In this document: one piece after another, positions 2,831-63,672 of the stretch
Layout of the letters: each line of letters begins with the position of its first letter
Position numbering within the stretch: the first letter of the stretch is position 1
Assembly (NCBI GenBank): GCA_949752745.1
Contig: OX457031.1
Location: forward strand, 2,519,741 to 2,583,740
Reading direction: 5' to 3'
DNA from: Protula sp. h YS-2021
Taxonomy: Eukaryota; Annelida; Polychaeta; Sabellida; Serpulidae
DNA length: 64,000 bases
Made by a program: the position numbers and the translations under genes
The notes under the pieces: model-generated
What the model was told of the DNA's origin: nothing
The model's input: only the letters and a program-made list of their open reading frames with translations
The model's database searches: none

Positions 2831-3732
2831 ATTCCATGGTTGTTCTGTTTAATCTATAAATATCTAAATGGCAATTACAATGCGATATGGAGTAAATAGC
2901 GGACCTTGGCACTGGTTAATGGCATTGAGACTATGATGGTATTAATAACAAAAACAGCCTTGGCATTTTGAAGCTTGGATATATTTTAGTACTTTTATTA
3001 AATTATAATTCTATGTCTTCGGGCGTTAAAGAAAGGGCATAAAAGTAAATATAGTGTAGAAGTAAAAAGGCAAGTGGGGTGGGGGCGTGATGGGGAGGGT
3101 TGAAGGGGTGGAAGACTTTGGGAGGACTGACAAAATAGGCTTTTCACATATGACGTAATTGGGAAGTTGACATTGTAGAAGTAAAAATTTTCGAGAGGAA
3201 TTTATCTGTGCAAATGTTTGTTTTCGCAATTAAAGCCCATTAATGAAAACTACTTTTATGCAAATAGATCTAAATTTTAGAAACATTTGCAGACAATAAT
3301 AAAAACAGATCTACCATATTTATTTATTATTAACTATATATTTTTTTGTTTACTTATTATTTATTTGGTGATTTTATTGGGCAATAGAAGTCTTCCTGAC
3401 GAAAAATGCGTTGTTGCAAAACAACTGACCTCTGGCGAGATCGCGAAATGGGCATGACCTCTGTTTTGTACGAAACATAAAGACGATGTAGACATGTAAT
3501 AGTTTCAGCTCTTTCGGCGATTGGCGAGAGTAACAGGTCCAATATATAACAGATCCAACCGCCGTAGAGGTTGACTGGTGGAGAGCAACGCGAAAAACAC
3601 ATAAATCAATATATGCGTGATGTCGAAGGCTTTTCGTAGCGTAAATATTTTTGTCCTCAACTCTTATACGTTTAACGTATTACTTTTAGTTTTAACGCAA
3701 TACTCAGTATTTTGTAAATAATCCTTGCTATT
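2831..3732. other. AT-rich intergenic stretch
   Basis: No recognisable gene. A minus-strand 81-codon open frame at 3357-3602 has higher GC than its surroundings, but I recognise no domain in it. Confidence 0.5.
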
Positions 3733-3772
3733 TCGTTTAGTAGGGTAAAAGTGGGGCTTCTAAAACAGGAAG

Positions 3773-4425
3773 TGACGTCATAATGACGTACGAGGTGTTT
3801 TAAAAGCCCCATGGGATTTCTAAAAGAGTGACGTCATTGTTTTAGAAGCCGCATGGGGTTTCTAAAACAGTGACGTCATTGTTTTAGAACTCCCATGGGG
3901 ATAGTTAAACAGTGACGTCATATGAACGTCAGTTCTGGGCAAGGAATTGACGTCATACTGACGTCATAGGGTGTTCCAGAACTGTCATGACAGTTTTGGA
4001 CCAGATGGTGATTGATAGGAGCGCGCGCCCGTGCCAATGACGTCATCATGACGTCATTATGGCGATATAATGACGTCATCATCATAACGTTATCATGACG
4101 TCATCATGCAGTTATCATGACGTCATAATGACCGTATGACGTCATGACATAGTACTAAGACTCTCCTAAGCAGCATAACCCTAGGTCACCTGTCAATCAT
4201 CATGACGTTATCAGTCACGTGACGTGTCAATTATCGGTCATGTGACCCTAACCCTAACAAGAGTTCCAGACCACTTTTTGACGTCATAATAACGTCAGAT
4301 CCCTAGGAGACGTCCCTTCTACCATCTGTCTATCATGAGGAAACGAGAGTTCCACGCCACTATTTTTCTAAAACATTCTATTGGTCCAGAACCCCCATGG
4401 GTTTTCTACGCCACTTGTGACGTCA
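3773..4425. promoter_or_regulatory. Array of about 14 TGACGTCA (CRE/ATF-type) palindromes, left arm
   Basis: By eye I count 14 perfect TGACGTCA octamers in roughly 650 bp, plus near matches such as TGACGTTA. TGACGTCA is the consensus site of CREB/ATF bZIP factors. Here it could be a host-factor-responsive enhancer, a transposase or integrase binding array, or both. Confidence 0.6.
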
Positions 4426-4524
4426 TAATGACATCAGACCCCTAGGAGACGTCCCTTCTACCATCTGTCTATCATACCTTCATAATACACATTCATAATG
4501 CACTCTATGGTTTAGGGTTAGGCT

Positions 4525-4609
4525 GCCCATACCCGGGCTCGAACCACCAACCTTCCGAGCATGGGTCCGACCAGGAGTCCCACGCTCTAACAACTGAGCT
4601 ATTCCGGAC
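4525..4609 (-). other. tRNA-like unit in the left TIR
   Basis: The minus strand has an A-box-like TAGCTCAGTTGTTAGAGCG and a B-box-like GGTTCGAGCCC. The D stem GCTC/GAGC is good and the acceptor is imperfect (GTCCGGA against TATGGGC). The middle forms a 7-bp stem, GCGTGGG/CCCATGC, with a 13-nt loop instead of a normal anticodon arm, and the T stem is poor. It is more likely a tRNA-derived RNA polymerase III promoter or pseudo-tRNA than a functional tRNA. Confidence 0.5.
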
Positions 4610-5509
4610 TGAACCAGAATGTTTTGTGAAAACATGCCATATAAGGCTATAATGCACAATGCACGATAAATTTCAAAGTGCATTCGTTCAGAGCGTGGGA
4701 ACGATCGATAAAATTTCAAAGTGCACTCGTTCAGAGCGTGGGGGAAACCGATCGATAAATTTCAGAGTGCACTCGTTCAGAGCGTGGGAACGATCAATAA
4801 ATTTGAGAAGGAATGGGATTTTCCCTACGTTAAGTCTAATGTTATGTTTTATGTTATAGCAGTTGGAAAATGGTACTTCTAAAGCACATTTAACAAATGT
4901 ACTTTTTGGAAAACATATGATATATAAAATAAGTTTTAGCATTTTACCATGCTACTTATTCAAATGTTCTAAAGTCATAGTAGTTGGAAAATGTTGGTTC
5001 TAGATCAACTTTAGCAAATGTAGTTTTTGATAACATATGATGTATAAAATAAGTTTAAGCATTTTACCAAGCTACTTATTTGAATGTTCTAAAGTTATAG
5101 TAGTTGAAAAATGGTGGTTCTAGACAAACTTTAGCAAATTTAGTTTTTGACACCATATGATATATAAAATACGTTTGAACAGTTTAGCATGCTACTTATT
5201 TGAATGTTCTAAAGTCATAGTAGTAGGAAAATGGTGGTTCTAGACCAACTTTAACAAATTTTGTTTTTTTGACAACATATGATGTATAAAATAAGTTTGA
5301 ACATTTTACCATGTTGTAGAAGGGTCAAAATCAGGGTTCTAAACCAACTTTAACAAATATTGATTTTTAACAACATATGATGTATAAAATAAGTTAGTGA
5401 GAAGAGCACGTCATTCAAACATGTATTCAAATGACAAGCCCCATTCGAAACATGTGTTTGAATTATTTTTGGAACATATTACGTCATGGTATTGTGCAAT
5501 AATTTTTTT

Positions 5510-5660
5510 AACAAGTTCAACAATTGTTCAACAAGTTGTTCAACATGTTCAACATGTTCAATATGTTCAACATGTTCAACAAGTTGTTCAACATGTTCAA
5601 CATTTTTTATTTGTTCAACATGTTCAACACGTTCAACAAGTTGTTGTTCAACAAGTTGTA
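5510..5660. repeat. GTTCAACAT/GTTCAACAAGTT minisatellite, left arm
   Basis: Short 9-12-bp units of GTTCAACATGTTCAACAAGTT type. Each contains GTTGAAC/GTTCAAC half-sites, so neighbouring units are partly palindromic. They lie directly upstream of a TATA box. Confidence 0.8.
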
Positions 5661-5667
5661 TATAAAG
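5659..5667 (+). promoter_or_regulatory. TATA box TATATAAAG in the left TIR
   Basis: It lies about 53 bp before an ATG at 5720. In this arm that ATG opens only a short broken copy of the zinc-finger start. The mirror site in the right arm reads ACATAAAG (around 7745-7755) and should serve the intact zinc-finger gene. Confidence 0.45.
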
Positions 5668-5719
5668 CTATGTTTAAAGACTTTCTCATCATTTGAATAG
5701 TGTAGGTTGAACCGAAAGG

Positions 5720-5780
5720 ATGTATAAATGGAACATTTGTTCGAAATCTTACAATTGGCCACAAAGCCACATATTGTAAA
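5720..5780 (+). pseudogene. Truncated start of the zinc-finger gene in the left TIR
   Basis: Beginning at ATG 5720 the frame reads MYKWNICSKSYNWPQS and then stops soon after. It matches the first 16 residues of the gene at 7214-7693, but the Cys at position 4, the first zinc ligand, is Trp here. TIR homology ends within it, at about 5766. Confidence 0.7.
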
Positions 5781-5835
5781 GTTATTTCTAAACATATTAG
5801 GACATAGTGTGTCCAACCTCGAGTGTGACAATTCC

Positions 5836-5851
5836 CTATATAGCATAAAAG
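5836..5851 (+). promoter_or_regulatory. Likely core promoter of the PC4-like gene
   Basis: CTATATAGCATAAAAG lies about 55-70 bp before the ATG at 5906, outside the TIR homology. It is a plausible TATA element. Confidence 0.4.
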
Positions 5852-5905
5852 GCACCTTCCCTCAGACATAACGCACATTCTGTATCAAGATACTGAAGAG
5901 TGAAC

Positions 5906-6448
5906 ATGTCTGCAGTGAGTGAACAACAACTACCATCTATGGTAATGCCTGCAGAAAATTTTATAGCAAAGCCTGAGACAGTACCTACAGCAAAGTCTAA
6001 GGCAATGCCCATGGTAAAGTCTAAGGCGAAGTCATGTCAGCAGCGTCAAAAGCGACCACATTTTAGAAAGATAAAACGAGATGAGTTACGAGCTAAGACG
6101 GCGCCGTGTAAAATTCGAAAAATTAAGACAGAGCCTTATATGAAGTGAGAACCGGAGCGTAAAGCTGATACCACCATGAAGAAGATGCGTGTAGACGATT
6201 CACCGGTTATGATACCCATTAATAGAGAAACATATATTAAATTGGTGAAATATCAACAGAAAGTGATGGTTAACATTCGTAAATATATTACGAATCATGC
6301 ATCTTGAAGGTTATATCCTACCAAGAAGGGAATTTTGTTGTCATTGAAAGACTGGCACAAGCTGAAGAAGCAAATGACGTCAGTGGATCTCATGCTTCAG
6401 AAAATGGATGTATATAAATGTAGTGCCTGTCAGAAGATGGTTGAGTAG
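5906..6448 (+). pseudogene. PC4-like (transcriptional coactivator p15/SUB1 family) protein, interrupted by two TGA codons
   Basis: The frame opens at ATG 5906 (an in-frame GTG at 5900 is not needed) and stays continuous to TAG 6446-6448, about 180 codons, except for TGA at 6146-6148 and TGA at 6305-6307. The N-terminal half is Lys/Arg-rich and low complexity, as in PC4 proteins. The part from about 6215 to 6400 resembles the PC4 single-strand DNA-binding fold: a YIKLVKYQQKVMVNIRKY strand-turn-strand block, then a TKKGILLSLKDWHKLKKQ block like the family's KGISL..W..L segment. A CxxC (CSAC) sits near the end. PC4 proteins bind single-stranded DNA and modulate Pol II transcription. Two stops make this copy probably dead unless TGA is read through. 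AATAAA follows at 6647. Confidence 0.6.
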
Positions 6449-6646
6449 AAAGTCATATGTGACTGTGTGCAATTTTAACAGCATGACTATGAAATGAATT
6501 AACATTATCTATGTTGGTGTAAAGTTAGTTTTTATAACATTTGTAAACTTATCAATTTAAGTTCTTATGAGTGGGTAAATGTATTAGCATAATATGTATT
6601 TGAAATATTTTTGTTTTTATCATAATTGTAAATATTTGTAATATTT

Positions 6647-6652
6647 AATAAA
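6647..6652 (+). terminator. AATAAA polyadenylation signal after the PC4-like gene
   Basis: It lies about 200 bp past the terminal TAG, in AT-rich sequence. Confidence 0.5.
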
Positions 6653-6900
6653 AGAACGACATATGATGCTTTTCAACTTATTTATTTTTCTCATACAATA
6701 CTTGGATATAATACATAATAATAAAATACTTGAATATATTACATTATGATACAATACTTGAATATAATACAAAATTAATTATAATACATAATATATGATA
6801 TATGGTCTACGGGAGAATTCACACCAAACCAGAGACCTTAGCCTCTCGCCACTCCATATGTTGTAAAGCAAGATTTATATTAATACACAACTGTTAAGTT
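6653..6900. repeat. AT-rich spacer with about three units of AATACTTGRATATAATACAT
   Basis: The units lie at 6690-6790. This spacer separates the 3' ends of the two convergent genes, and no coding potential is seen. Confidence 0.5.
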
Positions 6901-6928
6901 AATAAAATATTACAACATTTACAAAGTC

Positions 6929-6934
6929 TTTATT
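6929..6934 (-). terminator. AATAAA polyadenylation signal after the zinc-finger gene
   Basis: The minus strand reads AATAAAG shortly after the last coding remnant, which ends at 6956. Confidence 0.5.
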
Positions 6935-6955
6935 ATAAAGTTTAGTCTAATAAGA

Positions 6956-7213
6956 CTATTCTTCTGCATCTGTTTCACTCTGTTGCACCTCACTTTCCAT
7001 GCCACTTTCTTCGTCACTGCTACCATCCTCCTCCTCCATATCTAGTAGCTCTTCAAAGAATGCATTATTTTTCCTTATAGCCGCCTTTAGTGCCTTTGAA
7101 TACTTATAATGTTTTGTCATCAACAAAGTAATTAAAGTCCTCTAAAATCTTTTGATAATGTTGGCTTTTTTCTAGACGCTGGGTATAGTGGAACAGTCTC
7201 ATAAACAGTTGTT
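6956..7213 (-). pseudogene. Out-of-frame C-terminal remnant of the zinc-finger/acidic protein
   Basis: Beyond the TAA that ends the 159-codon frame, other minus frames still look coding. One reads WTKTTVYETVPLYPASRKK; another reads HYKYSKALKAAIRKNNAFF and then a Glu/Asp/Ser-rich tail ending at TAG 6956-6958. This suggests the ancestral protein was about 80 residues longer and has lost frame at least twice. Confidence 0.5.
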
Positions 7214-7693
7214 TTAGTCCATGCTTATAAATGGGTCATGGTCATAACTTGCTATTTCACGCGCATCTTCAAGTCCTTGTTCTTCATATTCTGAAACCTT
7301 TTCTTGAAATATGCTTTCATAATCATCGTAGACTTCTTGAACCATATCATGCCAAACGGAGTCTATTTCTGACTCACTTTCAGAGTCTGCTTCTGACTCA
7401 CTTTCAGAACTCCTATCATCAGCATCCTCGCCACACTGCTCCATATGTTTGAGCAAAGCTTCTTCGCTGTTGTATAATGCACCACATTCTGTACAAGCAT
7501 GTACATTCTTTTCAGCCATGTTGACGCTTTGACTTTCCATAGAAGACTCATCTAAAGTTTCCGTGAAAGGTAGTTTTACAGGGTTTTCCATATCCGATTC
7601 TTCATCCACTTCTGAAGTGTGAGCAACCTTTAAGTGTCTTTTAAGACTTTGTGGCCAATTGTAAGATTTCGAACAAATGTTGCATTTACACAT
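7214..7693 (-). CDS. Transposon-encoded C2H2/C2HC zinc-finger protein with acidic region
   Basis: A 159-residue frame starts at ATG 7691-7693. Finger 1 is C4-x2-C7-x12-H20-x4-H25 (C2H2). Finger 2 is C67-x2-C70-x12-H83-x3-C87 (C2HC). Residues 89-112 are a Ser/Glu/Asp run, followed by an amphipathic WHDMVQEVYDDYESIFQEK block and another acidic segment. Its layout, DNA-binding fingers plus an acidic patch, suggests a nuclear regulator, perhaps binding the TIR arrays; that role is inference. The promoter and first residues lie in the right TIR. The C-terminus is probably shortened (see 6956-7213). The family is unrecognised by name. Confidence 0.65.
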   Translation of the reverse strand: MCKCNICSKSYNWPQSLKRHLKVAHTSEVDEESDMENPVKLPFTETLDESSMESQSVNMAEKNVHACTECGALYNSEEALLKHMEQCGEDADDRSSESESEADSESESEIDSVWHDMVQEVYDDYESIFQEKVSEYEEQGLEDAREIASYDHDPFISMD

Positions 7694-7749
7694 CCTTTCG
7701 GTTCAACCTAAACTATTCAAATGATGAGAAAGTCTTTAAACAAAGCTTT

Positions 7750-7935
7750 ATGTACAACTTGTTGAACATGTTGAACAACTTGTTGAACAACAACTTGTTG
7801 AACATGTTGAACATGTTGAACAACTTGTTGAACATGTTGAACATATTGAACATGTTAAACATGTTGAACATGTTGAACAACTTGTTGAACATGTTGAACA
7901 ACTTGTTGAACAATTGTTGAACTTGTAAAAAAAAT
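7750..7935. repeat. GTTCAAC minisatellite, right arm
   Basis: Inverted counterpart of 5510-5660, somewhat longer because it has more units. It lies immediately upstream (minus strand) of the zinc-finger gene start. Confidence 0.8.
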
Positions 7936-8770
7936 TATTGAACAATACCATGACGTAATATGTTCCAAAAATAATTCAAACACATGTTTCGAATGGGGCT
8001 TATCATTTGAATACATGTTTGAATGACGTGCTCTTCTCACTAACTTATTTTATACATCATATGTTGTCAAAAAACAAAATTTGTTAAAGTTGGTCTAGAA
8101 CCACCATTTTCCTACTACTATGACTTTAGAACATTCAAATAAGTAGCATGCTAAAATGTTCAAACTTATTTTATATATCATATGGTGTCAAAAACTAAAT
8201 TTGCTAAAGTTTGTCTAGAACCACCATTTTTCCACTACTATAACTTTAGAACATTCAAATAAGTACCTTGGTAAAATGCTAAAAGTTATTTTATACATCA
8301 TATGTTATCAAAAACTACATTTGTTAAAGTTGATCTAGAACCAACATTTTCCAACTACTATGACTTTAGAACATTTGAATAAGTAGCATGGTAAAATGCT
8401 AAAATTTATTTTATATATCATATGTTTTCCAAAAAGTACATTTGTTAAATGTGCTTTAGAAGTACCATTTTCCAACTGCTATAACATAAAACATAACATC
8501 AGACTTAACGTAGGGAAAATCCCATTCCTTCTCAAATTTATTGATTGTTCCCACGCTCTAAACGAGTGCCCTATGTAATGCATCGATCGTTCCCACGCTC
8601 TGAACGAGTGCACTCTGAAATTTATCGATCGGTTTCCCCCGCGCTCTGAACGAGTGCACTCTGAAATTTTATCGATCGTTCCCACGCTCTGAACGAATGC
8701 ACTTTGAAATTTATCGTGCATTGTGCATTATAGCCTTATATGGCATGTTTTCACAAAACATTCTGGTTCA

Positions 8771-8855
8771 GTCCGGAATAGCTCAGTTGTTAGAGCGTGG
8801 GACTCCTGGTCGGACCCATGCTCAGAAGGCCGTTGGTTCGAGCCCGGGTATGGGC
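8771..8855 (+). other. tRNA-like unit in the right TIR
   Basis: Inverted partner of 4525-4609, the same 85-nt length, with intact A- and B-box-like blocks. Both copies point inward-to-outward from the element core and could drive Pol III transcripts across the arm ends. Confidence 0.5.
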
Positions 8856-8939
8856 AGCCTAACCCTAAACCATAGAGTGCATTATGAATGTGTATTATGA
8901 AGGTATGATAGACAGATGGTAGAAGGGACGTCTCCTAAA

Positions 8940-9505
8940 GGTCTGACGTCATTATGACGTCAAAAAGTGGTCTGGAACTCTTGTTAGGGTTAGGGTCACA
9001 TGAGCGATAATTGACACGTCACGTGACTGATGACGTCATGATGATTGACAGGAGACTTAGGGCTATGCTGCTTAGGAGAGTCCTAGTATAATTTCATGAC
9101 GTCATACGGTCATTATAACGTCATGATAACGTCATGATGACGTCATGATAACGTTATGATGATGACGTCATTATATCGTCATGATGACGTCATTGGCACG
9201 GGCGCGCGCTCCTATCAATCACCATCTGGTCCAAAACTGTCATGACAGTTCTGAAACACCCTATGACGTCAGTATGACGTCACTTCCTGGCCCAGAACTG
9301 ACGTTCATATGACGTCACTGTTTTTCTATCCCCATGTTGGTTCTAAAACAATGACGTCACTGTTTTAGAAACCCCATGGCGCTTCTAAAACAATGACGGC
9401 ACTGTTTTAGAAACCCCATGGCGCTTCTAAAACAATGACGTCACTGTTTTAGAAACCCCATGGCGCTTCTAAAAAACCTCCTGACGTTATTATGACGTCA
9501 CTTCC
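8940..9505. promoter_or_regulatory. Array of about 13 TGACGTCA palindromes, right arm
   Basis: Mirror of the left-arm array, with about 13 perfect octamers. Spacing is similar but not identical, and the motif is retained while the sequence between octamers varies. Confidence 0.6.
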
Positions 9506-9800
9506 TGTTTTAGAAGCCCCACTTTTACCCTACTTCGTTTGCATTTTTACAAACTTCACTAAATTAAATTATCCTCAAATTACTTCCGGTGGCCAAATTG
9601 CTGCAAGTCTCCCTTCGCAAAAATTCCTACTTCTATCATTTTTTAAATATTTACACTGTTTCAGTTTAAATTTTGAGACAGATACAAAAAGTTTTACAAC
9701 ACATCTCCTGTAATTTAAATTTAAAAACTTATGGAAAATTGTCAGACACGCATTTGTCAGATTTTGAGCCTTTTTACTTCTACTGTCAAATAATTTGGGG

Positions 9801-14324: not shown

Positions 14325-14640
14325 AAGACGGTAATATATATGTGAATTTATCCGTCAGCTTCTTTAGTTCACAACGGAGAGGAGGAGAGAACGAGAGAGA
14401 GAATCTGAGAGACAGAGAGAGAGATAGACAGATAGGCAGAGAGAATGGGACAGAGAGAGACAGAGAGAAAGAAAGAAAGTCTGAGATGATAGGTTGATAT
14501 AGAGATAGAAAGAGAGATATATAGATAGATATATAGATAGACAGATAGACAGAGACAGTGAAAGAGAGAGAGAGAGTGAGAAGAGAGAGAGAAAGAGAGA
14601 GACGGACGGGAAAAACGGTGGGGGGGGGGGCAAAAAGAGA
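13906..14640. repeat. ACACGGACACCTTGCTA minisatellite, (GATA)n and GA-rich microsatellites
   Basis: Three blocks lie in a row: a 17-18-bp minisatellite (13906-14100), a nearly pure (GATA)n tract (14101-14325) and GA-rich DNA (14382-14640). They sit immediately after the splice donor at 14670, so they should lie in the first intron of the minus-strand repeat gene. Confidence 0.8.
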
Positions 14641-14668
14641 AAGGAAAAAAATCAATAAGATAGGACTT

Positions 14669-14670
14669 AC
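14669..14670 (-). other. Splice donor (GT) ending the repeat exon
   Basis: The minus strand reads AAG|GTAAGTCC, a near-perfect consensus. Without splicing, the frame runs into the GA/GATA microsatellites and encodes implausible Ser/Leu/Tyr repeats. Confidence 0.75.
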
Positions 14671-17383
14671 CTTCCTCTTCCGTCACGTCTGGCAAGTTGA
14701 TTGTGGAAGGATAAACATCACTGGATGACGCAACCAACGCGGTAGTGTCAGTCACTGAGGTCTGGTCCATCTCTTCTGATGATTCAAACACGGTAGTATC
14801 CTCAATATCTCCAGAGAAATCCCCGGATGCTGTTGTAGCCTCAGTCTCTGCCGACGAATCATATATTGTAGTATCCTCAATATCTCCAGAGAAATCCCCG
14901 GATACTGTTGTAACCTCAGTCTCTCCAGAAGAATCATATATGGTAGTATCCTCAATATCGCCAGAAAAATATCCGGATGCTGTTGTAACCTCAGTCTCTT
15001 CGGAAGAATCATATATGGTAGTATCCTCAATATCTCCAGAGAAATCCCCGGATGTTGTTGTAACCTCAGTATCTCCCGAAGAATCATATATGGTAGTATC
15101 CTCAATATCTCCAGAGAAATCCCTGGATGTGGTTGTAACCTCAGTCTCTCCCAAAGAGTCATAGATTGTAGTATCGTCAATATCTCCAGAGAAATCCCCG
15201 GATGTGGTTGTAACCTCAGTCTCTCCTGAAGAGTCAAAAATGGTGGTATCCTCAATATCTCCAGAGAAATCCCCGGATGCTGTTGTAACCTCAGTATCTC
15301 CCGATGAATCATATATGGTAGTATCCTCAAAATCTCCAGAGAAATCCCCGGATGCTGTTGTAACCTCAGTATCTCCCGAAGAATCAAACACTGTGGTATC
15401 GTCAATATCTCCAGAGAAATCCCCGGATGTGGTTGTAACCTCAGTCTCTCCTGAAGATTCATATATTGTAGTATCCTCAATATCCCCAGAGAAATCCCCG
15501 GATGTTGTAACCTCAATATCTCCCGAAGAATCATATATTGTGCTATCCTCAATATCTCCTGAGAAATCCCCGGATGCTGTTGTAACCTCAGTATCTCCCG
15601 AAGATTCATATATTGTAGTATCCTCAATATCCCCAGAGAAATCCCCGGATGTTGTTGTAACCTCAGTCTCTCCCGAAGAATCATATATGGTAGTATCCTC
15701 AAAATCTCCAGAGAAATCCCCAGATGCTGTTGTAACCTCAGTATCTCCCGATGAATCATATATGGTAGTATCCTCAAAATCTCCAGAGAAATCCCCGGAT
15801 GCTGTTGTAACCTCAGTATCTCCCGAAGAATCATATATTGTAGTATCCTCAATATCCCCAGAGAAATCCCCGGATGTTGTTGTAACCTCAGTCTCTCCCG
15901 AAGAATCATATATGGTAGTATCCTCAAAATCTCCAGAGAAATCCCCGGATGCTGTTGTAACCTCAGTATCTCCCGATGAATCATATATGGTAGTATCCTC
16001 AAAATCTCCAGAGAAATCCCCGGATGCTGTTGTAACCTCAGTATCTCCCGATGAATCATATATGGTAGTATCCTCAATATCTCCAGAGAAATCCCCGGAT
16101 GCTGTTGTAACCTCAGTATCTCCCGAAGAATCAAACATTGTGGTATCCTCAAAATCTCCAGAGAAATCCCCGGATGCTGTTGTAACCTCAGTATCTCCCG
16201 AAGAATCATATATGGTAGTATCCTCAATATCTCCAGAGGAATCCCCGGATGCTGTTGTAACCTCAGACTCTCCCAAAGAGTCATAGATTGTAGAATCGTC
16301 AATATCTCCAGACAAATCCCCGGATGTCGTTGTAACCTCAGTATCTCCCGATGAATCATATATTGTGCTATCCTCAGTATCTCCTGAGAAATCCCCGGAT
16401 GTGGTTGTAACCTCAGCATCTCCCGAAGAATCATATATGGTAGTATCCTCAATATCTCCAGAGAAATCCCCGGATGCTGTTGTAACCTCAGTATCTCCCG
16501 ATGAATCATATATGGTAGTATCCTCAAAATCTCCAGAGAAATCCCCGGATGCTGTTGTAACCTCAGTATCTCCCGATGAATCATATATGGTAGTATCCCC
16601 AATATCTCCAGAGAAATCCCCGGATGCTGTTGTAACCTCAGTCTCGCCCGAAGAATCATATATGGTAGTATCCTCAATATCTCCAGAGAAATCCCCGGAT
16701 GCTGTTGTAACCTCAGTATCTCCCGAAGAATCAAACATTGTGGTATCCTCAAAATCTCCAGAGAAATCCCCGGATGCTGTTGTAACCTCAGTATCTCCCG
16801 AAGATTCAAACATTGTAGTGTCCTCAATATCTCCAGAGAAATCCCCGGATGTGGTTGTTGCCTCAGCATCTCCCGAAGAATCAAACATTGTGGTATCCTC
16901 AATATCTCCAGAGAAATCCCCGGATAAGGTTGTTGCCTCAGGATCTCCCGAAGAATCAAACATTGTGGTATCCTCAATATCTCCAGAGAAATCCCCGGAT
17001 GTGGTTGTTGCCTCAGGATCTCCCGAAGAATCAAACATTGTGGTATCCTCAATATCTCCAGAGAAATCCCCGGATGTGGTTGTTGCCTCAGGATCTCCCG
17101 AAGAATCAAACACTGTGGTATCCTCAAAATCTCCAGAGAAATCCCCGGATGCTGTTGTAACCTCAGTATCTCCCGAAGAATCAAACACTGTGGTATCCTC
17201 AAAATCTCCAGAGAAATCCCCGGATGCTGTTGTAACCTCAGTATCTCCCGAAGAATCAAACACTGTGGTATCCTCAAAATCTCCAGAAAAATCCCCGGAT
17301 GCGGTGGTAACTTCAGTCTCTACCGAGCAACGAAATATCGTGAACTGTAATGAGTACAGAAGTGCTAATATTTGCGGTCTCAT
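14671..17383 (-). CDS. Secreted Ser/Thr/Asp-rich protein with 34 SGD repeats; candidate proteoglycan core (large exon)
   Basis: The first ATG in frame is 17381-17383 (context GAAACATGA); upstream TTGCAG at about 17400 could be a splice acceptor. The start MRPQILALLYSLQFTIFRC looks like a signal peptide. Then come 34 tandem repeats of 25 residues (one of 24), consensus TEVTTASGDFSGDIEDTTIYDSSGD, and a short Ser/Thr/Asp tail. The exon ends at GAAGAGGAAG|GTAAGT, a consensus donor, after about 904 codons, in phase 1. The protein is highly acidic with almost no Lys, Arg or Cys. Ser-Gly pairs next to acidic and aromatic residues (DFSGD, DSSGD) fit glycosaminoglycan attachment sites, and the Thr runs fit O-glycosylation. 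A matrix, mucus or shell-associated proteoglycan is my inference; no named family is recognised. The C-terminus lies in further exons. Confidence 0.75.
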
Positions 17384-43458: not shown

Positions 43459-43658
43459 NNNNNNNNNNNNNNNNNNNNNNNNNNNNNNNNNNNNNNNNNN
43501 NNNNNNNNNNNNNNNNNNNNNNNNNNNNNNNNNNNNNNNNNNNNNNNNNNNNNNNNNNNNNNNNNNNNNNNNNNNNNNNNNNNNNNNNNNNNNNNNNNNN
43601 NNNNNNNNNNNNNNNNNNNNNNNNNNNNNNNNNNNNNNNNNNNNNNNNNNNNNNNNNN
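43459..43658. other. Assembly gap (200 N)
   Basis: Exactly 200 N between a poly-G tract and a (CT)n tract. Round-number gaps usually mean unknown length; both flanks are low complexity. Confidence 0.98.
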
Positions 43659-44247: not shown

Positions 44248-44745
44248 TTGCCGATGGATATAAATGCAACAGTTCACAGTACCACAGACACTGCTCCCAA
44301 CGACGTGACAGACAATAATGAAGAAGATGTCTGCATAGCGACATATTTCTGTAGAACTGCACAACGCGAGCTGGGTGGCAAACATAAAACTAGAAGATAC
44401 AAATTCAAGCCCGGTGATCGCGTGCGCATTACACATCAAAGAAACAGGTTTACCCGTGAATACGACCAAAGATGGACAGGGGAGGTCTTCACCATAGCTC
44501 AGCGGTTCAGAAGAGGACAAGTGTCTATTTATAGACTCAAAGACCATAATAACGAGCCCATAAGAGCCAGTTTCTACCAATCAGAGCTACAGAAAGTGGA
44601 CTTGAAAGACAACGAATTGTTTAAGATTGAAGAAGTGTTTAAAGAAAGGGGCCGGGGACAAAATAAACAGTACTATGTAAAGTGGCTATATTGGCCTAAA
44701 GCATTTAACAGCTGGGTTAAAGCAAGTGACATTGAACTATTGTAA
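44248..44745 (+). pseudogene. C-terminal part of a Polinton/Maverick-type integrase (SH3-like and chromodomain)
   Basis: The plus frame contains APNDVTDNNEEDV, then YKFKPGDRVRITHQRNRFTR, RWTGEVFTIAQRF, YRLKDHNNEPI and FYQSELQKVDL (SH3-like C-terminal domain of retroviral-type integrases). It ends in a chromodomain: FKIEEVF...QYYVKWLYWPKAFNSWV, with the aromatic positions present. This arrangement matches integrases encoded by Polinton/Maverick elements and their transposon-derived relatives. The catalytic DDE core is missing upstream; 44037-44240 is non-matching sequence after the microsatellite. The C-terminus is complete (TAA 44743-44745). A Ty3/gypsy chromovirus integrase is the main alternative. 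Confidence 0.65.
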
Positions 44746-45884: not shown

Positions 45885-46483
45885 ACTACTAAACAACCGA
45901 CGTCTTTTTTGGTTGAAAAAAGGTTGTATTTTGTCGCGATGACTTCACAACCATATTCTGACCTAATACCCCAAAACCCGACTTTATTTCGACGTCGAGG
46001 CGACGTCGGTTTTCTGACGTCATTCCGACGTTGCAAAAAAGATCAAAAAGCGATGAACATTATTATCGCTCACCGGAAATGGAAGTCATTTTGAAAAAGA
46101 GGAAGCAAGAACGTAATTTTTACATGAAAATTTTAGAATTTTGATGGCGCGTCGGTATTTTTCTTTCTAGATTGTATAAATGTACATGGAAAATGCTTTC
46201 GTATGTATTTCACAACAGCAGGTGAATGATTAGTTATCTATTAATTATATAACTCTAGTCAGTTTCAGGTCGGAATCCAACGTCGGTGCCAATTTCATAT
46301 GCAACCTAAAACCGACTTAATTCCGACGTCGGATTTAGGTCGGAACCCGACGTCCTTCTGACGTTGAAAACCCGACGTCGGTTCCATTTCATATACAATC
46401 AAAACCGGCACGTCAGTCCGACGTCGGAAACGTCGGGTCACGACGTCGACCCGACGTCATTCTGACGTCTTAATGTTTGCTAG
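45885..46483 (-). mobile_element. MITE family B, copy 1 (CCGACGTCGG-rich, 599 bp)
   Basis: Inverted relative to 53804-54402 and of the same length. The right end reads GACGTCTTAATGTTTGCTAGG and the left ACTACTAAACAACCGACGTC. Palindromic CCGACGTCGG and GACGTC words are repeated throughout. No transposase is seen. Confidence 0.8.
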
Positions 46484-46539
46484 GACGTGAGTCCTGGGGG
46501 GGGGGGGGTTGATGATGGAGGGGGCGGCATTCGTCGTCT

Positions 46540-52142: not shown

Positions 52143-53009
52143 ATGGGCAATTTCGTCGGGCATGCAATTCCGGGATCTTTCTTCTTCCTTATATCCATCT
52201 GGTGGCTGATCCAGATTCTGCGGCGCTACCACCAGTCCGTGACGTCACGCCGGACGTTCGTCACTTCGGTCTCGTGGCCTATCCACATAGGCAAGCGATT
52301 GGTTGATGTGGAAGCTTATACCATCGTGGCCGCGTGTTTGTGCGGTATTTTCGTGGAGCTAATAGGCGGACCACTTCACTATGGCTTTGAGAACTATTCG
52401 CTCGGCGCCAAGGTCGTCCAACACGCCACTATGTATTTCTTCTTTGGATTGACAGCAGCTGTTAGTCTGCTTCAAAAGTGCTTAGTCATACCGGAAGCGG
52501 ATTCCATTGGCCATATATGCCTATTTATAGCATATACTGTAGAAGGATTGTTGTTCCAGTTCCACCTATCGGGTCACGAGGGACTGGAATACAACCTGCA
52601 CGTGTTGCTTGTGTATACAATCTTTGCCACGTCACTTGTCGTCCTGTGTGAATTACGTTACAGAAACAACCCAATCTTTCCGATGGCCCGCACTGGCCTC
52701 ACGTGTCTCCAGGGGACATGGTTTTGGCAAATTGCCATGACGCTCTTTCCTCCGCTGTCCAACCCGTGGAACAAACACCATGACATTGTGGATGCTAGAT
52801 ATAATCACCACCATAAGCATTACAATATGATGATTATATGCTATTTCACCTGGCATGTTGCTTCTATTTTGATCGTCATGTTGGTCATTAGCGCATGCGT
52901 TGCGCGCAGGTACCAAAACGGCACGGTACAGCGTAACTGCGACAACACCGACCAATATTCGGTGTTGCTAAACGACAACAGCGACATCTGCGAAGACGAC
53001 GCGCACTAA
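52143..53009 (+). CDS. TMEM45B: TMEM45-like membrane protein (DUF716), copy 1
   Basis: A 288-residue intronless frame from ATG 52143. The N-terminus MGNFVGHAIPGSFF, QHATMYFFFG (93-102), the His-rich FHLSGHEGLEYNLH (140-153) and LQGTWFWQIAM..LFPP (189-204) are hallmarks of the TMEM45 family (DUF716), whose members are multi-pass proteins of about 275 residues. Hydrophobic segments lie near 8-25, 56-73, 93-112, 122-140, 153-170, 190-205 and 229-253, about seven in all. The acidic tail (YSVLLNDNSDICEDD) matches the family's cytosolic end. Vertebrate TMEM45B is found in internal membranes; the biochemical role is unclear. It differs from copies 2 and 3 at roughly 30 residues, including the last few. 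AATAAA lies at 53243. Confidence 0.9.
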   Translation: MGNFVGHAIPGSFFFLISIWWLIQILRRYHQSVTSRRTFVTSVSWPIHIGKRLVDVEAYTIVAACLCGIFVELIGGPLHYGFENYSLGAKVVQHATMYFFFGLTAAVSLLQKCLVIPEADSIGHICLFIAYTVEGLLFQFHLSGHEGLEYNLHVLLVYTIFATSLVVLCELRYRNNPIFPMARTGLTCLQGTWFWQIAMTLFPPLSNPWNKHHDIVDARYNHHHKHYNMMIICYFTWHVASILIVMLVISACVARRYQNGTVQRNCDNTDQYSVLLNDNSDICEDDAH

Positions 53010-53803: not shown

Positions 53804-54402
53804 CCCAGCAAACATTAAGACGTCAGAATGACGTCGGGTCGACGTCGTGACTCGACGTTTCCGACGTTGGACTGATGCCGGTTTTGGTTTTATATGAAAT
53901 GGAACCGACGTCGGGTTTTCAACGTCAGAATGACGCCGGGTTCCGACCTAAATCCGACGTCGGAATTAAGTCGGTTTTAGGTTGTATATGAAATTGGAAC
54001 CGACGTCGGATTCCGACCTGAAACTGACCAGAGCTATATAATTAATAGATAATTAATTATTCAACTGCTGTTGTGAAATACATACGAAAGCATTTTCTAC
54101 GTACATTTTTACAGTCTAGGAAGAAAAATACCGACGCGCCATCAAAATTCTAAAATTTTTATGTAAAAATTACGTTTTTTCTTCCTCTTTTTCAAAATGA
54201 CTTCCATTTCCGGTGAGCGATAATAATGTTCATCGCTCTTTGGTCGTTAATGCAACGTCGGAATGACGTCAGAAAACCGACGTCGCGTCGACGTCGGAAT
54301 AAAGTCGGGTTTTGGGGTAATAGGTCAGAATATGGTTGTGAAGTCGTCGCGACCAAAATACAACCTTTTTTCAACCCAAAAAGACGTCGGTTGTTTGCTG
54401 GG
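53804..54402 (+). mobile_element. MITE family B, copy 2 (599 bp) with an exact empty site in units 2 and 3
   Basis: Ends CCCAGCAAACATTAAGACGT and ACGTCGGTTGTTTGCTGGG give a 10-bp perfect TIR, CCCAGCAAAC. In unit 2 the site reads TATATAACGGTGT without the insert (around 59381-59392), so the element added 599 bp plus a 2-bp AA duplication. The interior is dense in GACGTC and CCGACGTCGG palindromes. No coding capacity. Confidence 0.85.
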
Positions 54403-57780: not shown

Positions 57781-58653
57781 ATGGGCAATTTCGTCGGGCA
57801 TGCCATTCCGGGAGCTTTTTTCTTCCTTATATCCATCTGGTGGCTGATCCAGATTCTGCGGCGCTTCCACCAGTCTGTGACGTCACGCCGGGCGTTCGTC
57901 ACGACGGTCACGTGGCCTATCCACATAGGCAAGCGATTGGTTGATGTGGAAGCGTATACCATCGTGGCCGCGTGTCTGTGCGGCATTTTCGTGGAGGTGC
58001 TAGGCGGACCGCTCCACTATGGCATTGATCACTATTCACTTGGCGCCAAGGTTGTCCAACACGCCACTATGTATTTCTTCTTTGGATTGACAGCAGCTGT
58101 TAGTCTCCTTCAAAAGTGCTTAGTCATACCGGAAGCGGACTCCATTGGCCACATATGCCTATTTCTAGCATATACTGTGGAAGGATTGCTGTTCAAATTC
58201 CACCTATCGGGTCACGAGGGACTGGAATACAACCTGCACGTATTGCTTGTGTATACGACTTTTGCCACGTCACTTGTCGTCCTGGGTGAATTACGTTACA
58301 GAAACAACCCCCTCTTTCCGATGGCCCGCACTGGCCTCACGTGCCTCCAGGGAACATGGTTTTGGCAAATTGCCATGACGCTCTTCCCTCCGCTGTCCAA
58401 CCCATGGAACAACCACCATGACATTGTGGATGCTAGATATAATAAGAACCACAAGCATTACGCTTTGCTAATTACGTGCTATTTCACATGGCATGTCGCT
58501 TGTATTTTGATCATCATGTTGGTCATTTGGGCATGCGTTGCGCGCAGGTACCACAACGGCACGGTACAGCGTAACTGCGACAACACCGGCCAATATTCTG
58601 TGCTGCTGAACGACAATAGCGACATCTGCGAAGACGATGCGCCTCCTGCTTAA
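57781..58653 (+). CDS. TMEM45B: TMEM45-like membrane protein (DUF716), copy 2
   Basis: A 290-residue intronless frame; the real start is ATG 57781 (an in-frame GTG 12 bp upstream is not a plausible start). It has the same motifs as copy 1. Substitutions include RRYHQ to RRFHQ, GFENYS to GIDHYS, FQFH to FKFH and HHHKHYNMM to KNHKHYALL. The C-terminus ends DDAPPA instead of DDAH. Protein identical to copy 3. Upstream sequence from about 57360 (AAAACAGTGAAAATGCGACG onward) is shared with copy 1, so the proximal promoter was duplicated with the gene. Confidence 0.9.
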   Translation: MGNFVGHAIPGAFFFLISIWWLIQILRRFHQSVTSRRAFVTTVTWPIHIGKRLVDVEAYTIVAACLCGIFVEVLGGPLHYGIDHYSLGAKVVQHATMYFFFGLTAAVSLLQKCLVIPEADSIGHICLFLAYTVEGLLFKFHLSGHEGLEYNLHVLLVYTTFATSLVVLGELRYRNNPLFPMARTGLTCLQGTWFWQIAMTLFPPLSNPWNNHHDIVDARYNKNHKHYALLITCYFTWHVACILIIMLVIWACVARRYHNGTVQRNCDNTGQYSVLLNDNSDICEDDAPPA

Positions 58654-62799: not shown

Positions 62800-63672
62800 A
62801 TGGGCAATTTCGTCGGGCATGCCATTCCGGGAGCTTTTTTCTTCCTTATATCCATCTGGTGGCTGATCCAGATTCTGCGGCGCTTCCACCAGTCTGTGAC
62901 GTCACGCCGGGCGTTCGTCACGACGGTCACGTGGCCTATCCACATAGGCAAGCGATTGGTTGATGTGGAAGCGTATACCATCGTGGCCGCGTGTCTGTGC
63001 GGCATTTTCGTGGAGGTGCTAGGCGGACCGCTCCACTATGGCATTGATCACTATTCACTTGGCGCCAAGGTTGTCCAACACGCCACTATGTATTTCTTCT
63101 TTGGATTGACAGCAGCTGTTAGTCTCCTTCAAAAGTGCTTAGTCATACCGGAAGCGGACTCCATTGGCCACATATGCCTATTTCTAGCATATACTGTGGA
63201 AGGATTGCTGTTCAAATTCCACCTATCGGGTCACGAGGGACTGGAATACAACCTGCACGTGTTGCTTGTGTATACGACTTTTGCCACGTCACTTGTCGTC
63301 CTGGGTGAATTACGTTACAGAAACAACCCCCTCTTTCCGATGGCCCGCACTGGCCTCACGTGCCTCCAGGGAACATGGTTTTGGCAAATTGCCATGACGC
63401 TCTTCCCTCCGCTGTCCAACCCATGGAACAACCACCATGACATTGTGGATGCTAGATATAATAAGAACCACAAGCATTACGCTTTGCTAATTACGTGCTA
63501 TTTCACATGGCATGTCGCTTGTATTTTGATCATCATGTTGGTCATTTGGGCATGCGTTGCGCGCAGGTACCACAACGGCACGGTACAGCGTAACTGCGAC
63601 AACACCGGCCAATATTCTGTGCTGCTGAACGACAATAGCGACATCTGCGAAGACGATGCGCCTCCTGCTTAA
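62800..63672 (+). CDS. TMEM45B: TMEM45-like membrane protein (DUF716), copy 3
   Basis: A 290-residue intronless frame from ATG 62800. The translation is identical to copy 2; I saw one silent difference (CACGTG against CACGTA at about 63258). All family motifs are present: GHAIPG, QHATMYFFFG, FHLSGHEGLEY, LQGTWFWQI. Either a very recent duplication or gene conversion explains the identity; an assembly artefact (retained haplotype) is possible. AATAAA at 63906. Confidence 0.9.
   Translation: MGNFVGHAIPGAFFFLISIWWLIQILRRFHQSVTSRRAFVTTVTWPIHIGKRLVDVEAYTIVAACLCGIFVEVLGGPLHYGIDHYSLGAKVVQHATMYFFFGLTAAVSLLQKCLVIPEADSIGHICLFLAYTVEGLLFKFHLSGHEGLEYNLHVLLVYTTFATSLVVLGELRYRNNPLFPMARTGLTCLQGTWFWQIAMTLFPPLSNPWNNHHDIVDARYNKNHKHYALLITCYFTWHVACILIIMLVIWACVARRYHNGTVQRNCDNTGQYSVLLNDNSDICEDDAPPA

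Follow-up and report, generated by a model that had tools for sequence, protein, structure and literature searches.

A complete transposon with near-Maverick ends, long repetitive arms and two decayed convergent genes in an annelid genome

Intact vertebrate Mavericks (Polintons) are 12.7–24.6 kb long, are flanked by 6-bp target-site duplications and have terminal arms of 46–1,447 bp, whose commonest ends are 5′-(AGT)2//(ACT)2-3′, with (AG)3//(CT)3 and a third kind in one fish also described (PMC8097293). Their genes usually lie in convergent modules, and most of them carry accessory regions with varied open reading frames (ORFs) outside the core modules (PMC8097293). In one survey, Mavericks were reported from every mollusc genome (PMC10294476). 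Here we describe a 5.8-kb element of the annelid Protula sp. h YS-2021 that has ends and a target-site duplication similar to those of Mavericks and carries two genes, one for a PC4-domain protein and one for a zinc-finger protein. It occupies positions 3739–9534 of the window, by which we mean the whole 64,000-nt stretch that was analysed (contig OX457031.1, positions 2,519,741–2,583,740, forward strand).

Sequence inspection and local alignment show the element to be complete. A perfect 6-bp duplication, TCGTTT, lies at 3733–3738 on the left and at 9535–9540 on the right, directly abutting AGTAGGG (from 3739) and CCCTACT (to 9534) in this one copy; neither heptamer occurs elsewhere within the window. 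The inverted arms measure 2,028 bp on the left (3739–5766, plus strand) and 1,888 bp on the right (7647–9534, minus strand), with 1,880 bp of interior between them. Aligned from base 1, they are identical at 1716 of 1773 ungapped columns (57 substitutions), with no difference in the outermost 46 bases and with 12 gaps of 1–124 bp, two of which (41 and 42 bp) have the size of a tandem unit. A chance inverted repeat was rejected on this degree of identity, and a retrotransposon was rejected given that the arms are inverted and that the open segments tested by Pfam gave no reverse-transcriptase match. Positions 3739–9534 are thereby confirmed as one complete transposon with a 6-bp duplication and AG//CT ends. 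An earlier note, made from the letters alone, had proposed just such an element, with long terminal inverted repeats, this duplication, these ends and about 1.9 kb of interior, and its coordinates proved exact; it had also named two convergent genes, PC4-like and zinc finger, and Pfam recovered both, the PC4 domain at E = 1.5e-9 and the C2H2 zinc finger at E = 1.6e-7 at best.

No enzyme gene that could account for movement was found in the element. Among the open segments tested with Pfam, which comprised those of at least 70 amino acids (aa) that were not of low complexity, none showed a domain of a transposase, integrase, polymerase or capsid; beyond the main gene matches, 10 further segments touching the element, including the start of the PC4 gene and one segment that runs past the right end, gave no match at E 0.01. 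Since none of the autonomous Maverick core set (protein-primed polymerase, integrase, ATPase, protease and capsid) was found in these segments, the element is not an autonomous Maverick and can at most be a non-autonomous one, with PC4-domain and zinc-finger genes in place of the core genes. What it shares with Polintons and Mavericks is the 6-bp target duplication, the AG//CT ends, the inverted arms and the orientation of its genes towards the centre. Its terminal AGTAGG//CCTACT agrees with (AGT)2//(ACT)2 at five of six bases, the latter being a vertebrate motif that may not be that of this host, and 38 of the 4,096 hexamers come within at least five of six bases of (AGT)2 or (AG)3.

Because the ends are near-Maverick, the duplication is 6 bp and no enzyme gene was found within the element, Polinton/Maverick enzymes are its likely movers, and we lean, if only modestly, towards the view that it is a decayed, non-autonomous and gene-carrying Polinton/Maverick satellite that such enzymes copied and inserted. 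The earlier note had spoken of a non-autonomous lineage mobilised by a Polinton-type integrase; the duplication, the ends and the lack of any Pfam mobilisation enzyme in the tested segments support this in part, and the integrase as its mover is not established. Cargo-carrying nematode Mavericks similarly combine Maverick ends with non-core genes, but these keep their own core genes. Ginger2 was rejected as a source: it has a 6-bp, AT-rich target preference and an integrase-type transposase related to that of Polintons, but its ends read TGTNR, against AGTAG in the present element, in which no such transposase was found (PMC2836005).

The arms are largely tandem arrays whose copy numbers differ between the two sides. 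From outside to inside, they contain 42-bp units, 11/22-bp units rich in TGACGTCA, 42–43-bp units, 120-bp units and 9-bp GTTCAACAT units. The 120-bp units, located by Tandem Repeats Finder, number 3.8 copies at 4856–5313 and 3.7 copies in the mirror array at 8042–8485; the GTTCAACAT-type repeats fill 5510–5659, where the left arm nears the interior and a TATA-like sequence follows at 5659, and are mirrored at 7754–7944, where that sequence has no counterpart. Internal repetition of this kind resembles foldback elements and counts against a Maverick origin. It speaks for a rival explanation, in which a foldback-type cut-and-paste DNA transposon of the Mutator, P or another superfamily has arms grown by tandem repeats, a transposase located elsewhere and two captured genes. 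Tetris likewise has very long inverted arms, internal tandem arrays and no transposase found (PMC4079207), and the arms of Galileo are also long and internally repeated (PMC3573991). However, Tetris makes duplications of 8–10 bp and is described as without conserved ORFs (PMC4079207), whereas the present element has a 6-bp duplication and two genes for which relatives or known domains exist; the fit of the ends to the Maverick motif at five of six bases also speaks against this rival, which we judge unlikely.

The TGACGTCA palindromes are concentrated in the arms, which hold 27 of the 28 found in the element and of the 36 found in the window: 14 in the left arm (3773–4425), partly within the 42-bp and 11/22-bp repeats, and 13 in the right arm (8944–9500). 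In 500 first-order Markov sequences of the arms, the count averaged 0.08 and never exceeded 2, against 27 observed, although these lie partly inside tandem units and so are not 27 independent events. TGACGTCA is the sequence of ATF/CREB-type sites; should the satellite interpretation be confirmed, such dense arrays would mean that the element brings regulatory sites into its host. A search of 3600–9700 with Rfam at E values up to 1 gave 44 matches over the arm repeat arrays, all below gathering scores and all microRNA-type hairpins except one, snR82; we took these as chance. Two stretches inside the arms, 4540–4625 and 8760–8860, look tRNA-like by eye, and the right-arm copy has GGTTCGAGCCC. 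ARAGORN (bacterial code setting) called no tRNA in the window, and there was no tRNA family among the Rfam matches.

Gene 1 (5906–6448, plus strand) encodes a basic N terminus followed by a PC4 domain; PC4 itself binds single-stranded DNA. With X placed at the two stops in its translation, the Pfam match reaches 37.6 bits against a gathering score of 25 and spans profile positions 5–51 of 52; the protein also matched three distinct PC4 sequences of solved structure, the best at E = 7.7e-6. The two stops are in-frame TGA codons at 6146–6148 and 6305–6307. A TATA-like sequence precedes the gene at 5837, and an AATAAA follows at 6647 on the plus strand.

Gene 2 (6956–7693, minus strand) encodes two C2H2 fingers, an acidic linker and a helical C-terminal domain, as seen by Pfam, tblastn and alignment. 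Both fingers lie in the open first part and score above the gathering threshold; the stop is at 6958–6956, and an AATAAA occurs at 6934 on the minus strand, this signal and that at 6647 being two among several such matches. Searching with the open first part yielded a single relative, P0001 (E = 1.1e-15), among 36 candidates, and searching with this part and P0001 aligned recovered 28 of 1,361 candidate proteins, P0001 being one of them. Against the window, tblastn of P0001 follows one frame from 7693 to 7067 with stops interrupting after about 7217; residues 140–193 match another frame instead (7235–7074), and the first frame fits again at the end of the match. We read this as disruption of the window copy by two frame changes, one near 7235 and one near 7110.

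When all 28 relatives were compared with the window by tblastn, 27 matched, and no match began outside the element. Twenty-two of them were aligned with the window copy (P0020, P0023 and P0025–P0028 were left out); these 22 share 36–99% pairwise identity, with a median of 61%, and the alignment shows the layout of fingers, acidic linker and helical C-terminal domain. Pfam recognised zf-C2H2 in 19 of the 23 members scanned, whereas none of the 15 Pfam families listed for the 23 names the C-terminal domain across most members. A structure model of the family has pLDDT block means of 80–95 over residues 101–200 (overall mean 72.1, pTM 0.38), and Foldseek, searching BFVD and PDB for the zinc-finger protein, found nothing at E 0.001. 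A conserved family, a C-terminal domain with no Pfam name common to most members and the empty Foldseek result would all suit a self-sufficient two-gene transposon of a new kind, in which the recombinase, or an essential subunit of it, would be none other than the zinc-finger protein with its helical domain; we regard this as a very improbable account. The protein family, in combination with the near-Maverick ends, takes the element beyond a common foldback element; the Maverick interpretation as such is plausible, if unproven.

Homology shows both genes to be real, and neither is intact in the window copy. Given these breaks and the 57 substitutions in 1773 arm columns, this copy looks dead. 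The suggestion in the earlier note that regulators are carried as cargo accordingly survives in part: both protein families were confirmed, and cargo carriage can hold for the lineage and not for the window copy. The element might also represent no separate lineage but the deletion product of one larger linear virus-like element, an adintovirus or a Maverick, in which the core genes disappeared and two accessory ones remained; the accessory regions with varied ORFs of most vertebrate Mavericks (PMC8097293) speak for this. No core-gene remnant was found in the tested segments, and the zinc-finger family has many diverged members, both of which speak against deletion. The second point weakens this explanation little because the contigs that bear the relatives, none longer than 3,022 bases, do not reveal whether these proteins belong to similar elements. 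We consider a deletion product rather improbable.

The inverted repeat does not stop at the gene boundary. It extends through the start codon and some 16 codons of gene 2, so that the inner end of the left arm carries an orphan stretch (5720–5767, plus strand) that repeats the first 16 codons of the zinc-finger gene and stands ahead of gene 1. The tblastn match of P0001 to this copy has an E value of only 0.051 by itself, but it is located where the arm alignment puts it. TATA-like sequences occur on the plus strand at 5659, 5723 and 5837. The inner arm end may be a promoter, duplicated through growth of the inverted repeat, with the resulting pair driving both genes; copying across the inverted repeat might keep the arms alike and would also account for its extension into the zinc-finger gene. 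Two observations weaken a shared promoter and, with it, the satellite interpretation of which it forms part. First, the right-arm place that matches 5659 reads TACATAA and has no TATA-like sequence, the sole right-arm match in the scanned stretch being at 8054; this counts against the two promoters being equal today. Second, a further TATA-like sequence, the one at 5837, is gene 1's own.

Movement of the satellite that we favour can be pictured as follows, each step being our proposal built on the arms, duplication, convergent genes, decay and zinc-finger family observed here. A partner Maverick would provide the protein-primed polymerase, for which the ends would be origins, and also the integrase, which would join the AGT-type ends to target DNA with a 6-bp stagger. 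The PC4-domain protein might coat the single strands exposed during strand-displacement copying, or aid transcription, and the zinc-finger protein could bind sites in the arms.

Several further points weigh against this satellite interpretation. First, the evidence for it comes from the ends of a single copy, which match a vertebrate motif at five of six bases. Second, the element, at 5.8 kb, is shorter and its arms, at about 2 kb, are longer than the ranges given above for intact vertebrate Mavericks. Third, neither the protein database (9 candidates, none at E 0.001) nor IMG/VR (3 pattern matches, none confirmed) yielded a relative of the PC4 gene, and the pairing of the two genes is thus seen in this element only. 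Fourth, the other IMG/VR searches confirmed no relative either: the 18-base terminus and the zinc-finger ORF gave no match, P0001 gave 18 pattern matches and the 23-row family alignment gave 290. Fifth, a possible integrase remnant elsewhere in the window, at 44254–44742, is unsupported beyond a chromodomain, and no further integrase part was recognised alongside it.

That ORF (plus strand) has its chromodomain at the C terminus (Pfam, 3.2e-6; matches to solved chromodomains begin at E 0.0017) and might be the terminal part of an integrase of Polinton or Gypsy type, a likeness that serves as a lead only. IMG/VR gave 4 pattern matches to it, with no relative confirmed, and NCBIfam gave no match; a longer reading returned chromodomain and Tudor-knot only, and the structure model was poor.

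A bolder version of the satellite interpretation would make the element one of many diverged lineages of a long-lived, two-gene linear Maverick satellite, which borrows its polymerase and integrase, brings its own single-stranded-DNA-binding and zinc-finger proteins and forms a chromosomal counterpart of a satellite virus; we advance this tentatively, as an unlikely extension. No description of the present element was found in the open-licence full-text literature, a body that excludes most subscription papers and probably Repbase reports, where one may exist. In the same literature, Polinton was not paired with transcriptional coactivator p15; phrases for non-autonomous, Maverick-derived or Polinton-derived elements matched only through 'Polinton-derived'; 'PC4-like' together with 'transposon' had a sole match, on the human PURA protein; and other papers among the matches listed did not mention PC4. 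With defined ends, a defined duplication and no enzyme gene found, the element makes mobilisation in trans by Mavericks directly testable. Confirmation would bring gene-bearing satellites into the Maverick world and would provide both a home and a likely function for a zinc-finger/helical family of which the fingers alone have Pfam names.

Elsewhere in the window, a 200-base run of N at 43459–43658, beside simple repeats, marks an assembly gap. A 1,004-aa ORF at 14369–17383 (minus strand) is built from copies of a unit rich in serine, threonine and aspartate, other frames being open too, and repeats at 246–2332 resemble those of this ORF. The stretches 45891–46484 and 53804–54396 form an inverted pair of about 595 bp that is 94% identical, two oppositely oriented copies of an interspersed repeat. 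Genes for TMEM45-like membrane proteins stand in tandem at 52143–53009, 57781–58653 and 62800–63672 (plus strand; Pfam DUF716, tested in the first and the third). The second and third, at 57781 and 62800, have 290-aa translations that look identical, pointing either to a duplication of some 5 kb in the recent past or to an assembly duplicate.

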